Shown: one piece after another, positions 3 through 48,138 of the stretch
Layout of the letters: each line of letters begins with the position of its first letter
How positions within the stretch are numbered: the stretch's first letter is position 1
NCBI GenBank assembly: GCA_021785495.1
Contig: JAJYFB010000004.1
Span: 1 to 55,846 of the forward strand
Direction: 5' to 3'
Origin: Acidobacteriota bacterium
GTDB lineage: Bacteria > Acidobacteriota > Terriglobia > Terriglobales > Acidobacteriaceae
DNA: 55,846 bases
Notes under the pieces: model-generated
The model's input: the letters and a program-made list of their open reading frames with translations, nothing else
What the model was told of the DNA's origin: nothing
Databases searched by the model: none
Translations under genes and position numbers: made by a program

Positions 3-914
3 GACCCGCTCTCGGAACTGGTCAAGGTCGATCCCAAGTCGATCGGCGTCGGCCAGTACCAGCACGATGTCGATCAACGCCAGCTTGCCGGCTCGCTCGA
101 AAAAGTGGTCGAGAGCTGTGTCAATCGCGTCGGCGTGGACCTGAACACCTCCTCGTGGACGCTCTTGCGCTACGTGGCCGGAATCACCGAGCGCACGGCG
201 ATGAATATCGTCACCTATCGCAATGAACATGGCGGTTTCCGCACGCGCGCGCAGGTGCTCGACGTGCCCGGCGTGGGGCCGAAGACCTTCGAGCAGGCGG
301 CAGGATTTCTGCGCATCCGCAACGGCGAGAACCCGCTCGACGCGACGGCCGTGCATCCGGAGTCCTACCCGGTGGTCGAGCAGATTGCAAAGATGCTCGA
401 TGCGAAGCTGGGCGAGCTGATCCTCAAGCCGGAGCTGCTCGAAAAGATCGACCGCAGCCGCCTCACGGCCGGAGCCTATACGCTCGAAGATATTCTGGCC
501 GAGCTGCGCAAGCCGGGCCGCGACCCGCGCGACAAATTCGTCGCGCCGCAATTCCGCGAAGAGGTGCGCGAGATTGGCGACGTTGCGGTGGGCATGATCC
601 TCGAAGGCGTGGTGACGAACGTGACCAAGTTCGGCGCCTTTGTGGACATCGGCGTTCATCAGGACGGACTGGTGCATCTCAGCGAACTGTCGAACAAGTT
701 CATCAAGGAGTCGGCTGAGGCGGTGAAGACCGGACAGATCGTGAAGGTGAAGGTGCTCAGCGTGGACGCGAAGGCCATGCGCATCGGCCTTTCGATCAAG
801 GCGCTGCTGGCTCCCGCCGGACGGCCCCAGCCGAAGAAGCAAGCATCTGCGCCGCCGGCGAGCTTCGAGCAAAAGCTGGCCGCGCTTTCGGCCAAGTGGG
901 GCGGGCGCGCGTAA
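3..914 (+). CDS. tex: Tex family transcription accessory protein, C-terminal part (5' end outside window)
   Basis: The frame is open from the first bases of the window, so this is the last ~303 codons of a longer gene; Tex proteins are usually 700-800 residues. The first residues contain the conserved IGVGQYQHDVD block. A helix-hairpin-helix stretch follows (VPGVGPKTFEQAAGFL, about residues 82-97 of the fragment). A typical S1 RNA-binding domain lies near the end (about residues 195-268, with KFGAFVDIGVHQDGLVH). Tex is a cytoplasmic nucleic-acid-binding factor linked to transcription in other bacteria. The internal ATG at 105 is not the start, because the conserved sequence runs upstream of it. 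A GC-rich dyad (tgcggg...cccgca, about 934-963) follows the stop and may end the transcript. Confidence 0.95.
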   Translation, partial: DPLSELVKVDPKSIGVGQYQHDVDQRQLAGSLEKVVESCVNRVGVDLNTSSWTLLRYVAGITERTAMNIVTYRNEHGGFRTRAQVLDVPGVGPKTFEQAAGFLRIRNGENPLDATAVHPESYPVVEQIAKMLDAKLGELILKPELLEKIDRSRLTAGAYTLEDILAELRKPGRDPRDKFVAPQFREEVREIGDVAVGMILEGVVTNVTKFGAFVDIGVHQDGLVHLSELSNKFIKESAEAVKTGQIVKVKVLSVDAKAMRIGLSIKALLAPAGRPQPKKQASAPPASFEQKLAALSAKWGGRA

Positions 915-1041
915 AGATTGAGGAAGAACAAACCAGCGCTGTGCGGGATGGCGCTCTTCTGGAGCCCCGCACCCCATCTTCGCCGCATGTTCCAATCGTT
1001 GTCTTGCGGCGTGCGCCATGCGGCCAGACCGGGGGCCAGTG

Positions 1042-1920
1042 TCATGCGCCTTTGCGGGCCAGCACTTCCACGGGCAGCACGGCGTTCATCGAACCCGAAC
1101 GGAAGCCCTTGCAGTCGAGCGTCACATACTTGAAGCCGGCCTCGTTGAGAGCCGCCGCGATGGCGTCCATCGTCTCCAGCGAGAGCGCCCGCGGAAGTTC
1201 GTCGCGCGCAATCTCCACGCGGGCCAGCTCTCCGTGGTGCCGCACGCGCAACTGGCGAAAGCCCAGTCGCCGCATGGCTTCTTCGCCGCGTTCCACCTGT
1301 TCGAGCACCTCGCGCGTCACCGTCCGGCCATACTCGACGCGCGAGGAAAGACACGGTGCGGCCGGCCGGTCCCAGAGTGGATAGCCCGCCGCGCAGGCCA
1401 ACCTGCGCACCTCCAGCTTTGTCATCCCGGCCTCGGCCAGCGGGGCCAGCACGGCGTGTTCCTCGGCCGCGCGCTGGCCGGGGCGGTAATCCCGCCTGTC
1501 GTCGGCGTTCATGCCGTAGGCGATGGATGAAAAGCCCCGGCTTGCGGCCAGTTTCTCCATCACTTGAAAAAGCTCGTCTTTGCAGTGGAAGCAGCGATTG
1601 GCGTCGTTCCGCGCGTACTCCGGCCGGTCCAGTTCGTCGGTCGCAACCACTTCCAGCGGCATGGCCAGCGACTGGGCGAAGGCGCGCGCCTGTTCAAGGT
1701 CGCGCCGGGCAAGCGATGGAGAATCGGCCAGCACGGCCAGCATGCGCTCGCCGAGCAGGCGATGCGCCGTGGCGGCCAAAAAAGCCGAGTCCACGCCGCC
1801 CGAGTAGGCCACCATCACCGAGCCCAGCCCGTTGAGCCGCTCTTCAAGCGCACGCAGTTTGGCTGTGGCGTTTTCTGCCGCTTCATGCGCTCGTATTTCA
1901 GTTTCCGCGCTCGCCGTCAT
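1042..1920 (-). CDS. larE: LarE-type ATP-dependent sacrificial sulfur transferase (PP-loop)
   Basis: 292 residues. The PP-loop ATP motif SGGVDS is at residues 40-45. A CFHC pair (C110, C113) and the conserved Cys in APCLSSR (C190) match the three-cysteine subgroup of LarE that carries a [4Fe-4S] cluster in characterised relatives; the single-Cys sacrificial type has only the last one. Known LarE adenylates and then thiolates the pyridinium biscarboxylate precursor of the nickel-pincer cofactor of lactate racemase. No larA, larB or larC lies in this window, so substrate and pathway are inferred. It is transcribed in the same direction as the FecR-domain gene 102 bp upstream. The family assignment is firm; the exact sulfur acceptor is not. 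Confidence 0.85.
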   Translation of the reverse strand: MTASAETEIRAHEAAENATAKLRALEERLNGLGSVMVAYSGGVDSAFLAATAHRLLGERMLAVLADSPSLARRDLEQARAFAQSLAMPLEVVATDELDRPEYARNDANRCFHCKDELFQVMEKLAASRGFSSIAYGMNADDRRDYRPGQRAAEEHAVLAPLAEAGMTKLEVRRLACAAGYPLWDRPAAPCLSSRVEYGRTVTREVLEQVERGEEAMRRLGFRQLRVRHHGELARVEIARDELPRALSLETMDAIAAALNEAGFKYVTLDCKGFRSGSMNAVLPVEVLARKGA

Positions 1921-16648: not shown

Positions 16649-16832
16649 CAGTTGTCAGTGATCAGTTGTCAGTTGTCAGTGATCAGTGATCAGTGATCAT
16701 TTGAGCGTTTCTGCGCACGAAGCAAGAACAAGGAGAACGTTGCCGTTCGCCCGCAAGCGATCTCCCGGACCAGTATCGCCGGCCAACCAGGGACAACTGA
16801 TAACTGACAACTGACAACTGATAGCTGACAAG
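16649..16832. repeat. CAGnnnn heptamer arrays in inverted orientation (locus A)
   Basis: Seven consecutive heptamers beginning CAG start at 16649, 16656, 16663, 16670, 16677, 16684 and 16691, built from cagttgt and cagtgat. After about 100 bp of other sequence, five CTG triplets at exact 7-bp spacing (16797, 16804, 16811, 16818, 16825) form the inverted counterpart. The arrays can pair with each other. They fill the space between two convergent genes. They resemble the short tandemly repeated heptanucleotide (STRR) sequences known from cyanobacteria in form, not in exact sequence. Confidence 0.85.
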
Positions 16833-26592: not shown

Positions 26593-26644
26593 ACAGTGCG
26601 CTCCATCCTTTCCACGTTTTTGCGGAAAGGATGGAGCGCACTGT
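26593..26644 (-). terminator. Perfect 21-bp hairpin after arsM
   Basis: The left arm 26593-26613 and right arm 26624-26644 are perfect reverse complements over 21 bp, with a 10-base loop (acgtttttgc). It starts 20 bp past the arsM stop. No T-run follows on the minus strand, so it may be a transcript-stabilising hairpin, a repeat unit or an unusual terminator. The sequence gcagaaaggatgga near 33220-33233 resembles the loop-proximal part of the right arm. Confidence 0.6.
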
Positions 26645-43808: not shown

Positions 43809-46070
43809 TTACCCCGGGTGAAAGTGCAGCCAGATCGTCTCGGCGGTTTTACGCGCGACGACGGCGGCCAGGCTTTCGACCGTGGCTTCGCGCACGTCGC
43901 GCAGGCTGCCGAAGTGGGTAAGCAGCCGCTGGCGGGTCTGCGCGCCCACACCGGGAATGCGCAGCAGTTCGGAGTCGCGGTCGCGCATGGCGCGGCGCTG
44001 GCGATGGTAGCCGATGGCGAAGCGATGGCTCTCGTCGCGGATGAGCTGGACCAGATGCAGAACCGGCGAGCGGCGGTCGAGCACGATGGGCTCGTCCTCG
44101 CTGCCGTGGAGATAGAGAATCTCCTCCTTTTTGGCGATGGAGGCGAGCGGCTGCGTGAGCAGGCCGAGAGATTCGAGGGCTTCGGCCGCGGCATGAAGCT
44201 GGCCCAGGCCGCCATCGACGAGCACCAGCGAGGGCATCGTCGCAGGCTCTTTGCTCTTGGGCGGAATGGCTGCTGCTGCCGAAGCGCCGTTTGTAGGATC
44301 GTGATCGGCGCTACGGAGAGCGTGCCTTTTCGCGTCCTTTGTCGAGGTCAAGTTTGGTCGCCCCTCCGGGGCTTGCGTCATCGTTTGCGTCTGCAACCCA
44401 GGGCTTCCGCCCGGGGCTATCTTCGCATTACCCTTCCGGGGCGCAGATGCTTGCGCAACGGTCTCGTTCACGGTTTCGATCTCCACTGCACCGATCTCAC
44501 CGGAACGAGCGCTCAAAATCTCGCTTCTGTCCGCGTCTGCATCGATTCCGCCGCTGCCGCCGTCGCGGATGCGGCGATAGCGGCGCTCGACGACCTCGCG
44601 CATGGAAGCGAAATCGTCGACGCCGGCCACGGTCTTCACCTTGAACTTGCGATAGGCTGATTTGTTCATCTTGCCGTCTTCCCAGACGACCATCGAGGCG
44701 ACGGTTTCCACGCCCTGAATGTGCGAGATGTCGAAGCACTCGATGCGGCGCGGCCGCTCCGGCAGCATCAGCGCCTCGGCCAGCGCCTCCTCAATGGCTT
44801 TGCGCGAGGGTTCAAGGACGCGGAAGCGCTGCACGAACGATTGCTTGGCGTTTTGGGCGGCCAGATCGACCAGGGCGCGCTTTTCGCCGCGCTGCGGCGC
44901 GGCAATCTCGACGCGATGGCCGGCGCGTTCGCCGAGCAGGGCGGCCAGCGTCTCGCGGTCGTCAAAATCCGCCGGCACAAGGAGGGTGCGCGGAACGTAC
45001 TGCTGATCGATGTAAAGCTGCTTGAGCAGGGCGCTGAAGACCGCGCCGGCGTGGAAGGAAGGCTCGGCCTCCTGCTCCGGGGCGAATGCCGCGTCTTCCT
45101 TGCGATTGCCAATCGGGTCGAGGGACGATGGACGATTCCGCACCTCTGTCCCCTGAACCCTGTTCTCTGAACCCTGTTCCCGGTCTTCCACCGCTTCCAT
45201 CAGGCTTGGAACGTCCTCCCAGAAGAACTCGCGGCGATCGACGATCTTGCCGTTGCGCAGGTGAAAGAGGTTGACGGCCAGCGAACCGTCCTCGAAGTGG
45301 AAGCCGAAGACGTCGGCCTCGTCGCCGGGCTGGGCGGTGTCGATGCGCTGCCGGGACTGGATTTGATGCACGGTTGAGATCTGGTCGCGCAGGCGCGCGG
45401 CAAGCTCGAACTGTTCGGCCTCGGCGGCGGCCATCATGCGCCCGGTGAGTGTGCGCTCCAGTTCGGCGTGGCGGCCTTCGAGAAAGAGCTGCGCGTCGCG
45501 GACGGCCTGCTTGTAGGCTTCGGGCGTCGTGAGGCCCTCCACGCAGGGGCCGAGGCAGCGATGCATGGAGTACTGAAGGCAGGCGCGGGGATGGTAGCGC
45601 GCCAGATCGACCTTGCAACTGGGCAGCAGGAAGCTGCGCTGAATCAGCTCGACCACGCGGAAGGCAAGGCTGCCGGGAAAGTACGGGCCGTAGTAGGCGG
45701 CGCCGTCCTTGCGCAGACGGCGCGTGACGAAGACCTTCGGAAAGCGGTCGGCGAGGGTGAGTTTGACGTAGGGATAGGTCTTGTCGTCGCGCAGCAGGAT
45801 GTTGAAACGCGGCTGCCGCTGCTTGATGAGGTTGTTTTCAAGGGCCAGCGCCTCCTGTTCGTTGCCGACCAGAATGTAGTCCAGATCGACGGCCTCGCGC
45901 ATCAGCGAGCCGGTTTTGGCATTGGCTTGCGAGGCCGCCAGCAGATACGAGCGGACGCGCGCCCGCAGATTTTTGGCCTTGCCGACGTAGATGACCTCGC
46001 CCGCGGCGTTTTTGTAGAGGTAGACGCCGGGATCGGTGGGCAGGGCGCGGATTTTTTCGTAGAGGTCCAT
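43809..46070 (-). CDS. uvrC: Excinuclease ABC subunit C, with two repeat-derived insertions
   Basis: 753 residues, against ~600 for typical UvrC. The start at 46070 gives the conserved MDLYEKIRALP-DPGVY. Domains: GIY-YIG nuclease (residues ~14-95, YVGKAKNLRARV), UVR helices (~205-245, AEQFELAARLRDQI), RNase H-like nuclease (FDISHIQGVETVASMVVWEDG, then the distal VLVDGGLGQLHAA), and C-terminal helix-hairpin-helix (LLRIPGVGAQTRQRLLTHFG). Two extra segments look like in-frame repeat insertions. One is a CTG-heptamer array (45146-45180) between the UVR and RNase H parts. The other is ~100 residues around a palindromic repeat (44358-44447) inside the RNase H domain, between RRYRRI and VLVDGG. All catalytic parts remain, so the protein is probably functional. 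Confidence 0.93.
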   Translation of the reverse strand: MDLYEKIRALPTDPGVYLYKNAAGEVIYVGKAKNLRARVRSYLLAASQANAKTGSLMREAVDLDYILVGNEQEALALENNLIKQRQPRFNILLRDDKTYPYVKLTLADRFPKVFVTRRLRKDGAAYYGPYFPGSLAFRVVELIQRSFLLPSCKVDLARYHPRACLQYSMHRCLGPCVEGLTTPEAYKQAVRDAQLFLEGRHAELERTLTGRMMAAAEAEQFELAARLRDQISTVHQIQSRQRIDTAQPGDEADVFGFHFEDGSLAVNLFHLRNGKIVDRREFFWEDVPSLMEAVEDREQGSENRVQGTEVRNRPSSLDPIGNRKEDAAFAPEQEAEPSFHAGAVFSALLKQLYIDQQYVPRTLLVPADFDDRETLAALLGERAGHRVEIAAPQRGEKRALVDLAAQNAKQSFVQRFRVLEPSRKAIEEALAEALMLPERPRRIECFDISHIQGVETVASMVVWEDGKMNKSAYRKFKVKTVAGVDDFASMREVVERRYRRIRDGGSGGIDADADRSEILSARSGEIGAVEIETVNETVAQASAPRKGNAKIAPGGSPGLQTQTMTQAPEGRPNLTSTKDAKRHALRSADHDPTNGASAAAAIPPKSKEPATMPSLVLVDGGLGQLHAAAEALESLGLLTQPLASIAKKEEILYLHGSEDEPIVLDRRSPVLHLVQLIRDESHRFAIGYHRQRRAMRDRDSELLRIPGVGAQTRQRLLTHFGSLRDVREATVESLAAVVARKTAETIWLHFHPG
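44358..44447 (-). repeat. Palindromic repeat inserted in-frame in uvrC (copy D)
   Basis: Three short dyads lie in a row: gcccctccggggc (44360-44372), a cccaggg/ccgccc-type stem near 44397-44416, and ccttccgggg near 44432-44441. The order and spacing match the 46233-46333 element read on its minus strand, so the two are one repeat family. Confidence 0.7.
45146..45180 (-). repeat. CTG-heptamer array inside uvrC (locus C)
   Basis: Five CTG triplets at exact 7-bp steps (45146, 45153, 45160, 45167, 45174); the units alternate ctgaacc and ctgttcy. It is translated in frame on the minus strand as a Gln/Gly/Asn/Arg-rich linker. Same heptamer family as loci A and B. Confidence 0.8.
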
Positions 46071-46588
46071 GGCGCAACGGAGGCGAAACGGGGGCAAAGC
46101 GCGGCGCAGGGCGGCCAGCTTCTAGAATAGCGGGCCTGCGCGCAGCAGCGCCGACGTCCTGCTGCTCGTGCAGGGCCATCGCATGAACGAAGCCAGAGTA
46201 CGCAATGGACACGGCTTTGGATCCAACCGCCGGTTGCGTCCCGGAGGGACAGGCGAAAATAGCGCAGGGTGGAGCGCAGCGGAACCCTGGGACGGTGCGG
46301 AGAAGAGCCGTTCGCGCCCTGGAGGGGCGCGGCGATCCTTTCATGCAAACTCGTGTGCAATTCGCCGGCAGCGCAGAAAAGGTAGGCAATCCTTACCCGA
46401 TTGGGTAAAAATTACACGCCTCCTTGGGCGTTTGGGGGCGGTTTCTTGTATGTAAATTATTTATATTCAATTATTTGTGATGATTTCTGCCTTTGGCGTG
46501 AGTCGTGCTTCTTCCACAGCGTTGACATGAGCCCGCGCAGCCTGATTCCATCGAGCGACGCCGGGCGAAAGATGGAAGGGGGAAGACG
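46071..46588. other. Gene-free region between uvrC and the OmpA-like gene
   Basis: 518 bp. It contains a palindromic repeat (46233-46333), then a markedly AT-rich stretch (46400-46490) that includes a perfect 6-bp dyad ttaccc-gatt-gggtaa (46393-46408). The AT-rich part probably holds the promoter of the OmpA-like gene. Confidence 0.6.
46233..46333 (-). repeat. Palindromic repeat near the uvrC start (copy E)
   Basis: Three hairpins: gtcccggagggac (46238-46250), cagggt...accctg (46265-46289), and gcgccctggaggggcgc (46314-46330). Read on the minus strand it aligns with the element inside uvrC, including the shared ctat-ttcgc segment after the second dyad. Confidence 0.7.
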
Positions 46589-47314
46589 ATGACAAGCAAT
46601 CGAGTTGGACTTGCATTGGCTGCCGCGGCTGTGGCCGCACTGGGCGTGACGGGATGCGCCACCAAGAATTACGTGCATACGCAGACCGCGCCGCTGGTCA
46701 CGCATGCCGATCAACTGGACCAGAAAACGGCCGAGAACAACAAACGGATTCAGGATGTGGACGCGCAGGCGCAGGCCGGGATCAGCCAGGCGCAGAGCGC
46801 GGCCGACGCCGCCAACCAGAACGCGCAGAAGGCCAGCCAGGCGGCCAGCCAGGCGCAAACCGCGGCCAACAACGCCGTGCAGCGCGCCGACTCGCTCGAC
46901 AGCGTGGTGAAGAACCTGGACAACTATCAGGAACTCGCCAAGGTTTCGGTGACCTTCGGCTTCAACAAGGCCGTGCTGGCCGCCGACGACAAGGCGCAAC
47001 TGGACAGTTTTGCCGGGCAGTTGAGCGCGGACAAGGACTACATTCTGGAAGTGACCGGCGGCACCGATTCGGCCGGCCCCGCGCAGTACAACTACGATCT
47101 GAGCCAGCGCCGCGCCGACGCCGTGGTGCAGTACCTGGCCGCGAAGCATAACATTGCGCCGCCCCACTTCTCTCTGATCGGCACCGGCAAGGACGAGAAC
47201 GTGGCGGCGAATGACAGGGCGGCCGGGCGCAAAGCCAACCGGCGCGTCCAGGTGCGTCTGCTCTCGAACGCGAGCGGAAGCGGCGCAGCCAGCGGAACAG
47301 CGGCGCAAAACTAA
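46589..47314 (+). CDS. OmpA family lipoprotein with Ala/Gln coiled-coil
   Basis: 241 residues with a ggaaggggga ribosome site. The signal ends in the lipobox GVTGC (acylated Cys23). Residues ~45-105 form an Ala/Gln/Asn heptad coiled coil, resembling Lpp-like spacers. The OmpA-like peptidoglycan-binding domain spans ~115-235: VSVTFGFNKAVLAADDKAQLD, TGGTDSAGPAQYNYDLSQRRADAV and NRRVQVRL. Likely role: anchoring the outer membrane to peptidoglycan. No tol genes are adjacent, so it is not clearly Pal. Confidence 0.92.
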   Translation: MTSNRVGLALAAAAVAALGVTGCATKNYVHTQTAPLVTHADQLDQKTAENNKRIQDVDAQAQAGISQAQSAADAANQNAQKASQAASQAQTAANNAVQRADSLDSVVKNLDNYQELAKVSVTFGFNKAVLAADDKAQLDSFAGQLSADKDYILEVTGGTDSAGPAQYNYDLSQRRADAVVQYLAAKHNIAPPHFSLIGTGKDENVAANDRAAGRKANRRVQVRLLSNASGSGAASGTAAQN

Positions 47315-47401
47315 TGTAAAGTCAGCGCGCACGAGCACAAGCACAAGCAAGCAGGGCGGACCGCATCGGTCCGCCCTGCTTGCGTTAGGCTTGCGCGGTG
47401 A

Positions 47402-47683
47402 TTATGCCGCAGCCATTCGCTTGAGTTGAATCCGCTCTTTCGGAAACTGCGCCAGATCGTAGTGCGCCTGCTGCACGATCCAGCTTTCCGCAGAACCGCC
47501 GAAGACCTGTGCAAGCCGGATTGCCATTTCGGCAGAGATGCCGCGCCTGCCGTTCACCAATTCGGAAAGCGTCGTTCTTGTCACGCCGAGAGCCAATGCC
47601 GCTTGCGTGATGGTCAGACCGAACGGTTTGATGCATTCGGCCAGGACAACGGAACCAGGATGCGGCGGATTCTTCATCGGCAT
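47402..47683 (-). CDS. higA: HigA family antitoxin (XRE-type helix-turn-helix)
   Basis: 93 residues with a tgaggaag ribosome site seven bases upstream. The family opening NPPHPGSVVLAECIKPFGLTITQAA is followed by a helix-turn-helix (LGVTRTTLSELVNGRRGISAEMAIRLAQVFG, ~30-65) and the SAESWIVQQAHYDL block, as in HigA antitoxins. It follows the higB toxin gene by 12 bp and is intact. In active modules HigA binds HigB and represses the higBA promoter. Here the toxin is broken, so HigA may persist only as a regulator. Confidence 0.92.
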   Translation of the reverse strand: MPMKNPPHPGSVVLAECIKPFGLTITQAALALGVTRTTLSELVNGRRGISAEMAIRLAQVFGGSAESWIVQQAHYDLAQFPKERIQLKRMAAA

Positions 47684-47695
47684 GGCAATACTTCC

Positions 47696-48138
47696 TCAGT
47701 GATAATCGACGTAATCTACAGAGCCACTTGCAAAATTCGATCGACGTGCGCAGGAATTGAAAGGGCACGACTTGAGTCGTGCCGTAAGTCGCCTGGAATG
47801 AATGAGGGCTTTAGCCCCTGAGGGACGATCTTCTGCTTGCGGATGTGCCGGCACGGAATTTTGCAAGTGGCTCTACATCTACAGCGTTCCCTGCGGAGAA
47901 TCGAAAGATAACCCGCCAATTGGCCCGCACGGTAACTGCCCAGAATCCGTCGTAGTCGCGTTTGAGGGCATGAAGGGAAAATCCTGGGAGATTCATGTCC
48001 TCCTGAGCGGTTGCCGCGTCAAGACGGGCCAGTATCCAGTATGTTGCGAAGTTTTGTAACGTGCTCGGCCAAAACGCCACGAGCGTCGTCTTGCTCATAC
48101 AAGCGTTTGAGGCCTTTATGCCGGATCGAACGAATCAC
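47696..48138 (-). pseudogene. higB: higB toxin gene, broken by a 7-bp duplication and a MITE
   Basis: From a GTG at 48138 the frame reads VIRSIRHKGLKRLYEQDDARG... as in HigB. A tandem 7-bp duplication (ccagtat at 48029-48035 and again at 48036-48042) then shifts the frame. Removing one copy restores LRNILARLDAAT, followed by AQEDMNLPGFSLHALKRDYDGFWAVTV, WRVIFRFSAGNAVDV. After that a 155-bp MITE (47720-47874) splits off the last codons. Beyond the MITE the expected ending DYVDYH and a stop are still readable (47696-47713). RelE/HigB-type toxins cleave ribosome-bound mRNA and use residues near this C-terminus. An open frame starting inside the gene (48098) is therefore not an intact toxin. Confidence 0.9.
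47720..47874. mobile_element. 155-bp MITE with perfect 19-bp terminal inverted repeats
   Basis: The left end agagccacttgcaaaattc (47720-47738) and the right end (47856-47874) are perfect reverse complements over 19 bp. The flanks give a 2-bp AC duplication, and removing the element with one AC restores the higB sequence exactly. Inside are a perfect hairpin ggcacgact-tg-agtcgtgcc (47764-47783) and a smaller agggct-tt-agcccc dyad (47805-47818). No coding capacity, so it would need a transposase supplied in trans. Confidence 0.88.

Follow-up and report, generated by a model that had tools for sequence, protein, structure and literature searches.

The DNA considered here, a stretch of 55,846 nucleotides (the window) corresponding to contig C191 of a 2.94-Mb acidobacterial draft genome in 218 contigs, contains an intact uvrC gene encoding a protein with two long linkers, the second of which includes, in frame, a palindromic repeat of three hairpins (element D), with a further three-hairpin repeat (element E) being found upstream of the gene (Table 1). 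The named relatives retrieved with the window's UvrC, including Occallatibacter savannae and Terracidiphilus, belong to the Acidobacteriaceae, and the best match to the uvrC of genome G020 shows 79% identity. The protein presents the Pfam families GIY-YIG, UVR, UvrC RNase H and HhH in the expected order. A first-pass annotation of the window had described this UvrC as some 150 residues too long, and correctly so, as linkers of 54 and 107 residues here correspond, measured on the same scale, to 8 and 3 residues in the shortest relatives. Linker 1 lies in the middle portion of UvrC, while linker 2 splits the RNase H endonuclease domain, with the RRY helix on one side and the VDGG-ending strand on the other, as revealed by alignments to two chains of solved structure (3c65 and 2nrt). 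In an AlphaFold model based on 36 sequences, the predicted local distance difference test (pLDDT) score was below 50 at residues 301-317 and 319-335 of linker 1 and at residues 508-552 and 554-605 of linker 2, as well as at residues 91-98 and 245-247. The model, from which the loops may be predicted to be disordered in vivo, offered a mean pLDDT of 74.2 and a predicted template modeling (pTM) score of 0.40, such that the overall domain arrangement it depicts is unreliable.

A covariance model, R1, was built from 20 aligned copies of the three-hairpin repeat, taken from the flanks of Y1 transposase genes in the genus and from the source genome, with D being excluded. Across the window, R1 recognized two places, namely, E and D, the latter with an E-value of 4.9e-10 (2.5e-8 when the whole source genome is considered). 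Because R1, trained without D, detects both, D and E are members of one family, termed REP3, and the first-pass description of a three-hairpin palindrome lying in frame in the second extra segment of UvrC was borne out. In the R1 set, 95.1% of the cells in the three helices are paired, as compared to at most 61.2% when the pairing partners were shifted by 1 to 3 columns. Six of the 20 pairs are altered on both sides, a value equaled by one of 500 shuffles, and the 23 double-changed cells were equaled by none, the covariation score exceeding that of all 500 shuffles. REP3, therefore, shares with repetitive extragenic palindromes (REPs) a conserved hairpin structure.

Table 1. Features of uvrC and its surroundings in the window (R1, the covariance model of the REP3 family; F2, a second palindrome family).
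Feature	Position	Strand	Basis
uvrC, 753 aa, intact	43812..46070	-	single open frame, no stops
Linker 1, length-variable loop, 54 aa here, 8-108 aa over 81 rows	45042..45203	-	alignment, pLDDT
Degenerate heptamer array, five units, inside linker 1	45147..45181	-	lag-7 identity 18/28; TRF (Tandem Repeats Finder) period 14 at 45153-45179
Linker 2, 107 aa	44244..44564	-	alignments to relatives and to 3c65 and 2nrt; pLDDT
Element D, REP3 copy with three hairpins, in frame within linker 2	44352..44442	-	R1 score of 50.5 bits, spanning the 100 model positions
Probable decayed F2 palindrome next to D	44268..44331	-	local alignment score of 31 to F2 consensus, reached by 1 of 2000 shuffles
Element E core, three-hairpin repeat (REP3)	46238..46336	+	R1, 84 bits
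Whole E unit, resembling a miniature inverted-repeat transposable element (MITE), between uvrC and divergent open reading frame (ORF) at 46589	46171..46356 (right end approximate)	+	family alignment, terminal inverted repeat (TIR)

The family is also dispersed. At least 40 R1 matches at E <= 1 were obtained in the source genome, with 150 of 2189 first-look candidates having been scored, and matches at 1e-4 exist in at least 25 of 30 genomes of the genus, where part of the first-look candidates were scored. Of 40 source-genome copies, 39 were not called as lying within a gene, D being the sole in-gene copy, a distribution that, as in the case of REPs, is mainly extragenic. All in-gene rates given here are relative, since the caller, trained on the window alone, assigned no more than 324 of 725 random segments to genes. 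Source-genome copies of REP3 are crossed by 35 long frames; when 30 of these were considered using Pfam, eight contained a family, and none of these eight had its copy inside the matched domain. A BLAST search of the source genome with D yielded short matches only, and a search of Rfam returned no matches.

At the site equivalent to that occupied by D, the UvrC of locus L002 contains a decayed D copy (R1, 29 bits), with no other D-like match being found among relatives when 30 UvrC loci were searched with R1. Linker 2 of L290 is the same as that of L002, and L343 contains, by reading, sequence related to D at this position. As L290 and L343 appear to stem from another assembly project, and as repeat-bearing long loops were found in many separate assemblies, including that of the isolate Occallatibacter savannae AB23 (L299), it is extremely improbable that the inserts reflect an assembly artefact, even if the source genome is a 218-contig draft. 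L360, adjacent to L002, L290 and L343 on the UvrC tree, holds F2-like sequence at the D site. In the window, the F2 consensus could be aligned to one flank of D (Table 1), with the opposite flank yielding nothing (1922 of 2000 shuffles scored as high), a result that is suggestive only, pointing to a decayed F2 copy adjoining D.

The survey of UvrC comprised 81 rows, corresponding to the window's gene and the best 80 of 174 loci found, with 78 being measured for linker 2 once three cut rows were dropped. Because the query itself carried inserts, long-loop rows may be over-represented; in a genus sample chosen by kinship (24 rows, with L018 and L026 being cut), linker 2 spans at least 41 residues in 7 of the 22 rows covering it. 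In the full survey, linker 2 is at its minimum of 3 residues in 50 of 78 rows and contains at least 20 residues in 22, of which 15 include a recognized repeat family. As such, the extra segments are neither universal in the Terriglobia nor, given the match of D to dispersed repeats, distinct from intergenic repeats. Linker 1 holds a recognized family in 31 of 81 rows, the window's own linker 1 not being among these since the heptamer motif used for counting fails to match its array. Overall, repeat motifs were found 94 times in the 16.1 kb of loop sequence of the 81 genes and once in the 148.9 kb of core sequence. There are fewer than 94 repeat elements, because the halves of F2 were counted separately and heptamers were scored as overlapping matches; the contrast between loops and core is independent of such double counting.

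The families seen in the UvrC loops of 30 loci, 24 from the genus, are F2, F3, heptamer arrays, F4 and REP3. F2, exact in four UvrC loci and near-exact in a fifth (L019), encodes peptides of the form 'KGHDFSRA...ALAPEG' or 'QGTTSVVP...ALAPEG'. F3, present in the uvrC linkers of L003, L004, L014 and others, has fixed ends (GGGTGCCCCA ... TGGGA) and a self-complementary stem that varies with each copy, and encodes 'GAPGLDSETWE'. In a group of acidobacteria, unrelated families of small hairpin repeats have repeatedly entered two uvrC loops in frame. The heptamer array assigned to the first extra segment by the first-pass annotation is the least secure part of the observation, its lag-7 identity being matched in 27 of 1000 codon-shuffled genes, with clear arrays in linker 1 of other species lending it support. 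The heptamer pattern was uninformative across the genus, where the reversed control matches too.

The weakness of the window's array, together with the 7 of 22 long linker 2 segments and the large portion of the loop beyond D, in the window itself, in which no family was recognized, could be taken to mean that the loops grew by ordinary low-complexity expansion and merely resemble repeats. Against this stand the E-value of D and the presence in five UvrC loci of an F2 hairpin whose exact pattern has 961 copies, distributed over 29 of 30 genomes, while the control matched nothing. Low-complexity growth is contradicted in the case of D and in that of the clear carriers of F2 and F3, holds only for parts of the loops and, as an explanation of the inserts as such, is very unlikely.

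The palindromes were also considered in relation to Y1 transposases of the type associated with REPs (RAYTs). Two Y1 transposase matches exist in the source genome, one of which (C200:1049-1378; locus L136, genome G000) is bracketed by R1 copies in inverted orientation, at 891-989 (+) and 1476-1576 (-). The ORFs flanking this gene and its repeats (891-1576) read like lpxA and lpxI, predicted to encode LpxA and LpxI, respectively. R1 matches lie close to the Y1 gene in 12 of 30 Y1 loci, of which five, scoring 20 to 46 bits, can be considered independent, since the other seven supplied sequences to R1. In a broader motif survey (114 places found, 110 loci taken and 89 with a readable frame analyzed), motif densities per kb in the flanks of Y1 genes were 0.24 for REP3, 0.18 for F2 and 1.09 for F3, as compared to 0.04, 0.02 and 0.09, respectively, in a background of 345 kb of UvrC, Der and UvrB loci, i.e., enrichments of approximately 6-, 9- and 12-fold. 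The F4 motif was not found in the flanks of these 89 loci. Inverted pairs surround the Y1 gene in 4 loci for REP3, 4 for F2 and 14 for F3; when the second half of F2 was used, such pairs were seen in 6 loci, with L426 being doubtful given that its nearest sites point in the same direction. As no locus is common to REP3, F2 and F3, each of the three families is associated with its own set of Y1 transposase genes. Inverted copies flanking a Y1 transposase gene are a further trait shared with REPs, and this arrangement suggests that the linked transposases may move the palindromes.

Outside of uvrC, F2 was seldom seen in genes. In-gene copies accounted for 2 of 30 sampled genus loci and for 5 of another 68 copies, drawn from G004 and G009 (a sample that excludes part of G009, as well as the G004 uvrC copy), as compared to the 324 of 725 random segments from the same loci. 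The seven hosts are a RimO-type enzyme, a cysteine-rich Fe-S protein, a PolyA_pol-type nucleotidyltransferase, Der, an ABC exporter, a DUF58 protein and one unidentified frame. In the RimO-type enzyme (L254), the PolyA_pol-type protein (L286), Der (L287, the same gene as in L373) and the ABC exporter (L208), F2 lies between matched Pfam domains. In Der (EngA), family motifs were found in the interdomain linker in 4 of 18 measured rows (7 of 25 rows being unmeasurable), with none being found in the core of these 18. UvrB was of identical length in all 18 full-length matches, with a single motif in 30 genes or pieces (53 kb), and a general bias toward repair genes was accordingly rejected, UvrB being without inserts. 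In the window itself, an F2-type palindrome (GGCACGACTTGAGTCGTGCC) is also found at 47762-47785, beside an ORF at 47402-47683 (-).

We consider it probable, at approximately 0.85, that these palindromes are selfish, transposase-linked elements that can persist within a gene only where they preserve the frame and occupy a tolerant loop. According to this scenario, Y1 transposases would disperse the palindromes, copies landing in genes would nearly always be lost, and those surviving would be copies that keep the frame and lie in loops or interdomain linkers tolerant of changes in length. Surviving loop copies would then decay and be joined by further repeats. Selection would likely be purifying rather than favoring the insert. 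The first-pass suggestion of selection for tolerated insertions is in agreement with the concentration of motifs in loops, the low pLDDT scores of these loops and the avoidance of genes by the repeats elsewhere. Its accompanying suggestion of a mechanism creating protein linkers holds in part, in that linkers have been lengthened in this manner in UvrC, Der, the RimO-type enzyme and others, with any selection for length being conjectural. Indeed, were repeats recruited because longer hydrophilic linkers improve these proteins, for instance through looser coupling of the UvrC nuclease halves, this would be in line with several families recurring in both loops across many species and with the shared coding orientation of all 12 in-gene F2 copies examined. 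However, the minimal linker 2 in 50 of 78 rows, the decay of the copies and the differences among the encoded peptides argue otherwise, a role in linker building being unproven and adaptive recruitment unlikely. A tentative extension of the selfish persistence of tolerated copies, which we hold to be possible rather than probable, is that palindromes serve as an ongoing source of linkers. Here, an early in-frame copy would make a loop a safe landing pad, upon which unrelated REP3, F2, F3, tandem and other repeats would land and nest, converging on the UvrC loops, as well as on linkers found in further multidomain proteins, in a preferred coding orientation.

Several points weigh against the selfish persistence of tolerated copies as a full account. 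The motifs and thresholds were fixed after viewing the data, with the motifs being drawn from these same loops, and, as noted above, part of the long linker 2 segments contain no recognized family. The GTAG or GTGG tag of canonical REPs precedes hairpin 2 in 1 of 20 REP3 copies and hairpin 1 in none of 24 source-genome copies, and is found in none of 103 F2 copies, such that REP3 and F2 are best described as Y1 transposase-linked palindromes rather than canonical GTAG REPs. The 12 in-gene F2 copies (the seven described above and five from UvrC) are all in the sense orientation, where 0.47 is predicted from stop codons (p = 1e-4 if the copies are independent; p = 0.005 for the seven non-UvrC copies), and hence some factor beyond keeping the frame acts. 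In linker 2, [KR]EP precedes the conserved (M/L)PSL in 21 of 22 long segments and in three short ones. This common ending implies that the loop probably lengthened before many of the repeats arrived, and that the inserts are not all independent. Finally, E-type copies carry TIRs and flanking direct repeats of 9-13 bp, on the basis of which part of the REP3 family would move by another route.

The order of events in the loops was addressed using a tree of the UvrC core, upon which linker 2 changes state 14 times. As 27 of the 75 inner branches are open, yielding a poor backbone, this value is not a count of insertions. A single clade for linker 2 of the [KR]EP type (25 rows, as compared to 53 others) was rejected by the approximately unbiased (AU) test (p = 2e-5), a rejection that is open to doubt because the [KR]EP ending common to nearly all long loops implies a loop history in common. 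Both the AU result and the common ending would be accounted for if the loop was extended early on and repeats were thereafter inserted, lost or exchanged time and again. More recent steps may be seen in pairs of rows. The sister rows L299 and L322 differ in that L322 contains a 24-nt F4 repeat within an F3 hairpin, in frame, while another repeat, in an F3 loop, distinguishes L296 from L289; these look like before and after pairs.

The surroundings of E differ from those of D. When a 112-nt query covering E was employed, 19 places were found in the source genome, E included, matching over at least 106 nt at 80% identity or more. Alignment of the family defined a unit of some 205 bp with the ends CAGGGC(C/G)ATCGCATGAA and its inverse, i.e., with TIRs, as in MITEs. 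With up to one mismatch, the source genome contains this end motif 29 times, as compared to 0-4 times in each of 15 other genomes of the genus and not at all in 9 genomes of the same order. Flanking direct repeats scored at least 7 in 10 of 23 E-type copies and in none of the shuffled pairs, such that target duplication, a further MITE trait, is seen at the level of the family. Such a combination of TIRs and target duplications is characteristic of classical transposases rather than of RAYTs. In E itself, the left TIR is exact (46171-46187) and the right end eroded (10 of 19 TIR positions matched), with no target duplication, the left end alone being intact. Among the 30 TIR loci examined, paired ends lie 185-307 bp apart, with one pair 750 bp apart, and no autonomous partner was found there, the search having been of these loci rather than of whole genomes. 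E-type units are thus MITE-like in their TIRs and target duplications and differ from MITEs in enclosing a REP3 core and in the absence of such a partner from the loci examined. Around D, no unit ends were found, the best end-motif match (10 of 17) being at the level of shuffled sequence. The first-pass view of the upstream three-hairpin element as a relative of the insert hence stands at the level of the family, whereas D and E as simple sister copies was rejected, given how E lies in a TIR unit.

In-frame palindromic mobile repeats have been described in conserved genes of Rickettsia, where several families of Rickettsia palindromic elements (RPEs) are outlined (PMC10969869). The uvrC palindromes are similarly mobile, in frame and of several families, and are found in conserved genes (uvrC and those encoding Der, the RimO-type and PolyA_pol-type proteins and the ABC exporter). 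They differ from RPEs, which were compared by description only, in belonging to another phylum, in being linked to Y1 transposases and in that several families stack at two loops of one protein. REPs within genes, many of these serving replication and repair, with 'UvrABCD' being named, were presented in 2013, together with the proposal that flexible linkers or loops are neutral sites (PMC3733652). The intragenic REPs detailed there are tagged by GTAG or CGTC, whereas the repeats considered here are without GTAG or GTGG, the tags to which the comparison extends. Unlike 'UvrABCD' in that account, UvrB here carries no insert, which disfavors a general repair-gene bias. The same source describes TIRYT, i.e., Koribacter versatilis Y1 genes lying between inverted repeats that bear no relation to GTAG REPs, with one set of these repeats being dispersed. 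The likeness to the present case, also an acidobacterium with inverted repeats flanking Y1 genes, is one of description rather than of sequence comparison between Koribacter repeats and REP3, F2 or F3. An outline of REP features also places one class of Y1 transposases in Acidobacteria (PMC6006769). A literature search, covering few subscription papers, revealed nothing on these repeat families or on acidobacterial UvrC loops. Relative to the cited literature, as far as it describes such cases, the kind of event is already known, with the phylum, the families and the convergence on two loops being new.

The acidobacterial uvrC genes offer a natural series, in which one conserved protein is found with and without in-frame mobile repeats in dozens of related species, including the apparent before and after pairs. 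Because of this series, the question of whether such linkers are tolerated or useful becomes testable. In addition, three repeat families that enter coding sequences can be linked to particular Y1 transposase genes.

Other repeats were noted in the window. Directly after the ORF at 46589-47314, a stem of 19 bp with one mismatch and a 3-nt loop (47345-47385) is possibly a terminator or another repeat. Heptamer tandem arrays with the units TCAGTGA and GACAACT are found at 16649-16699 and 16792-16831, separated by a short gap, and a hairpin with a 23-bp stem containing one mismatch lies at 26593-26644.

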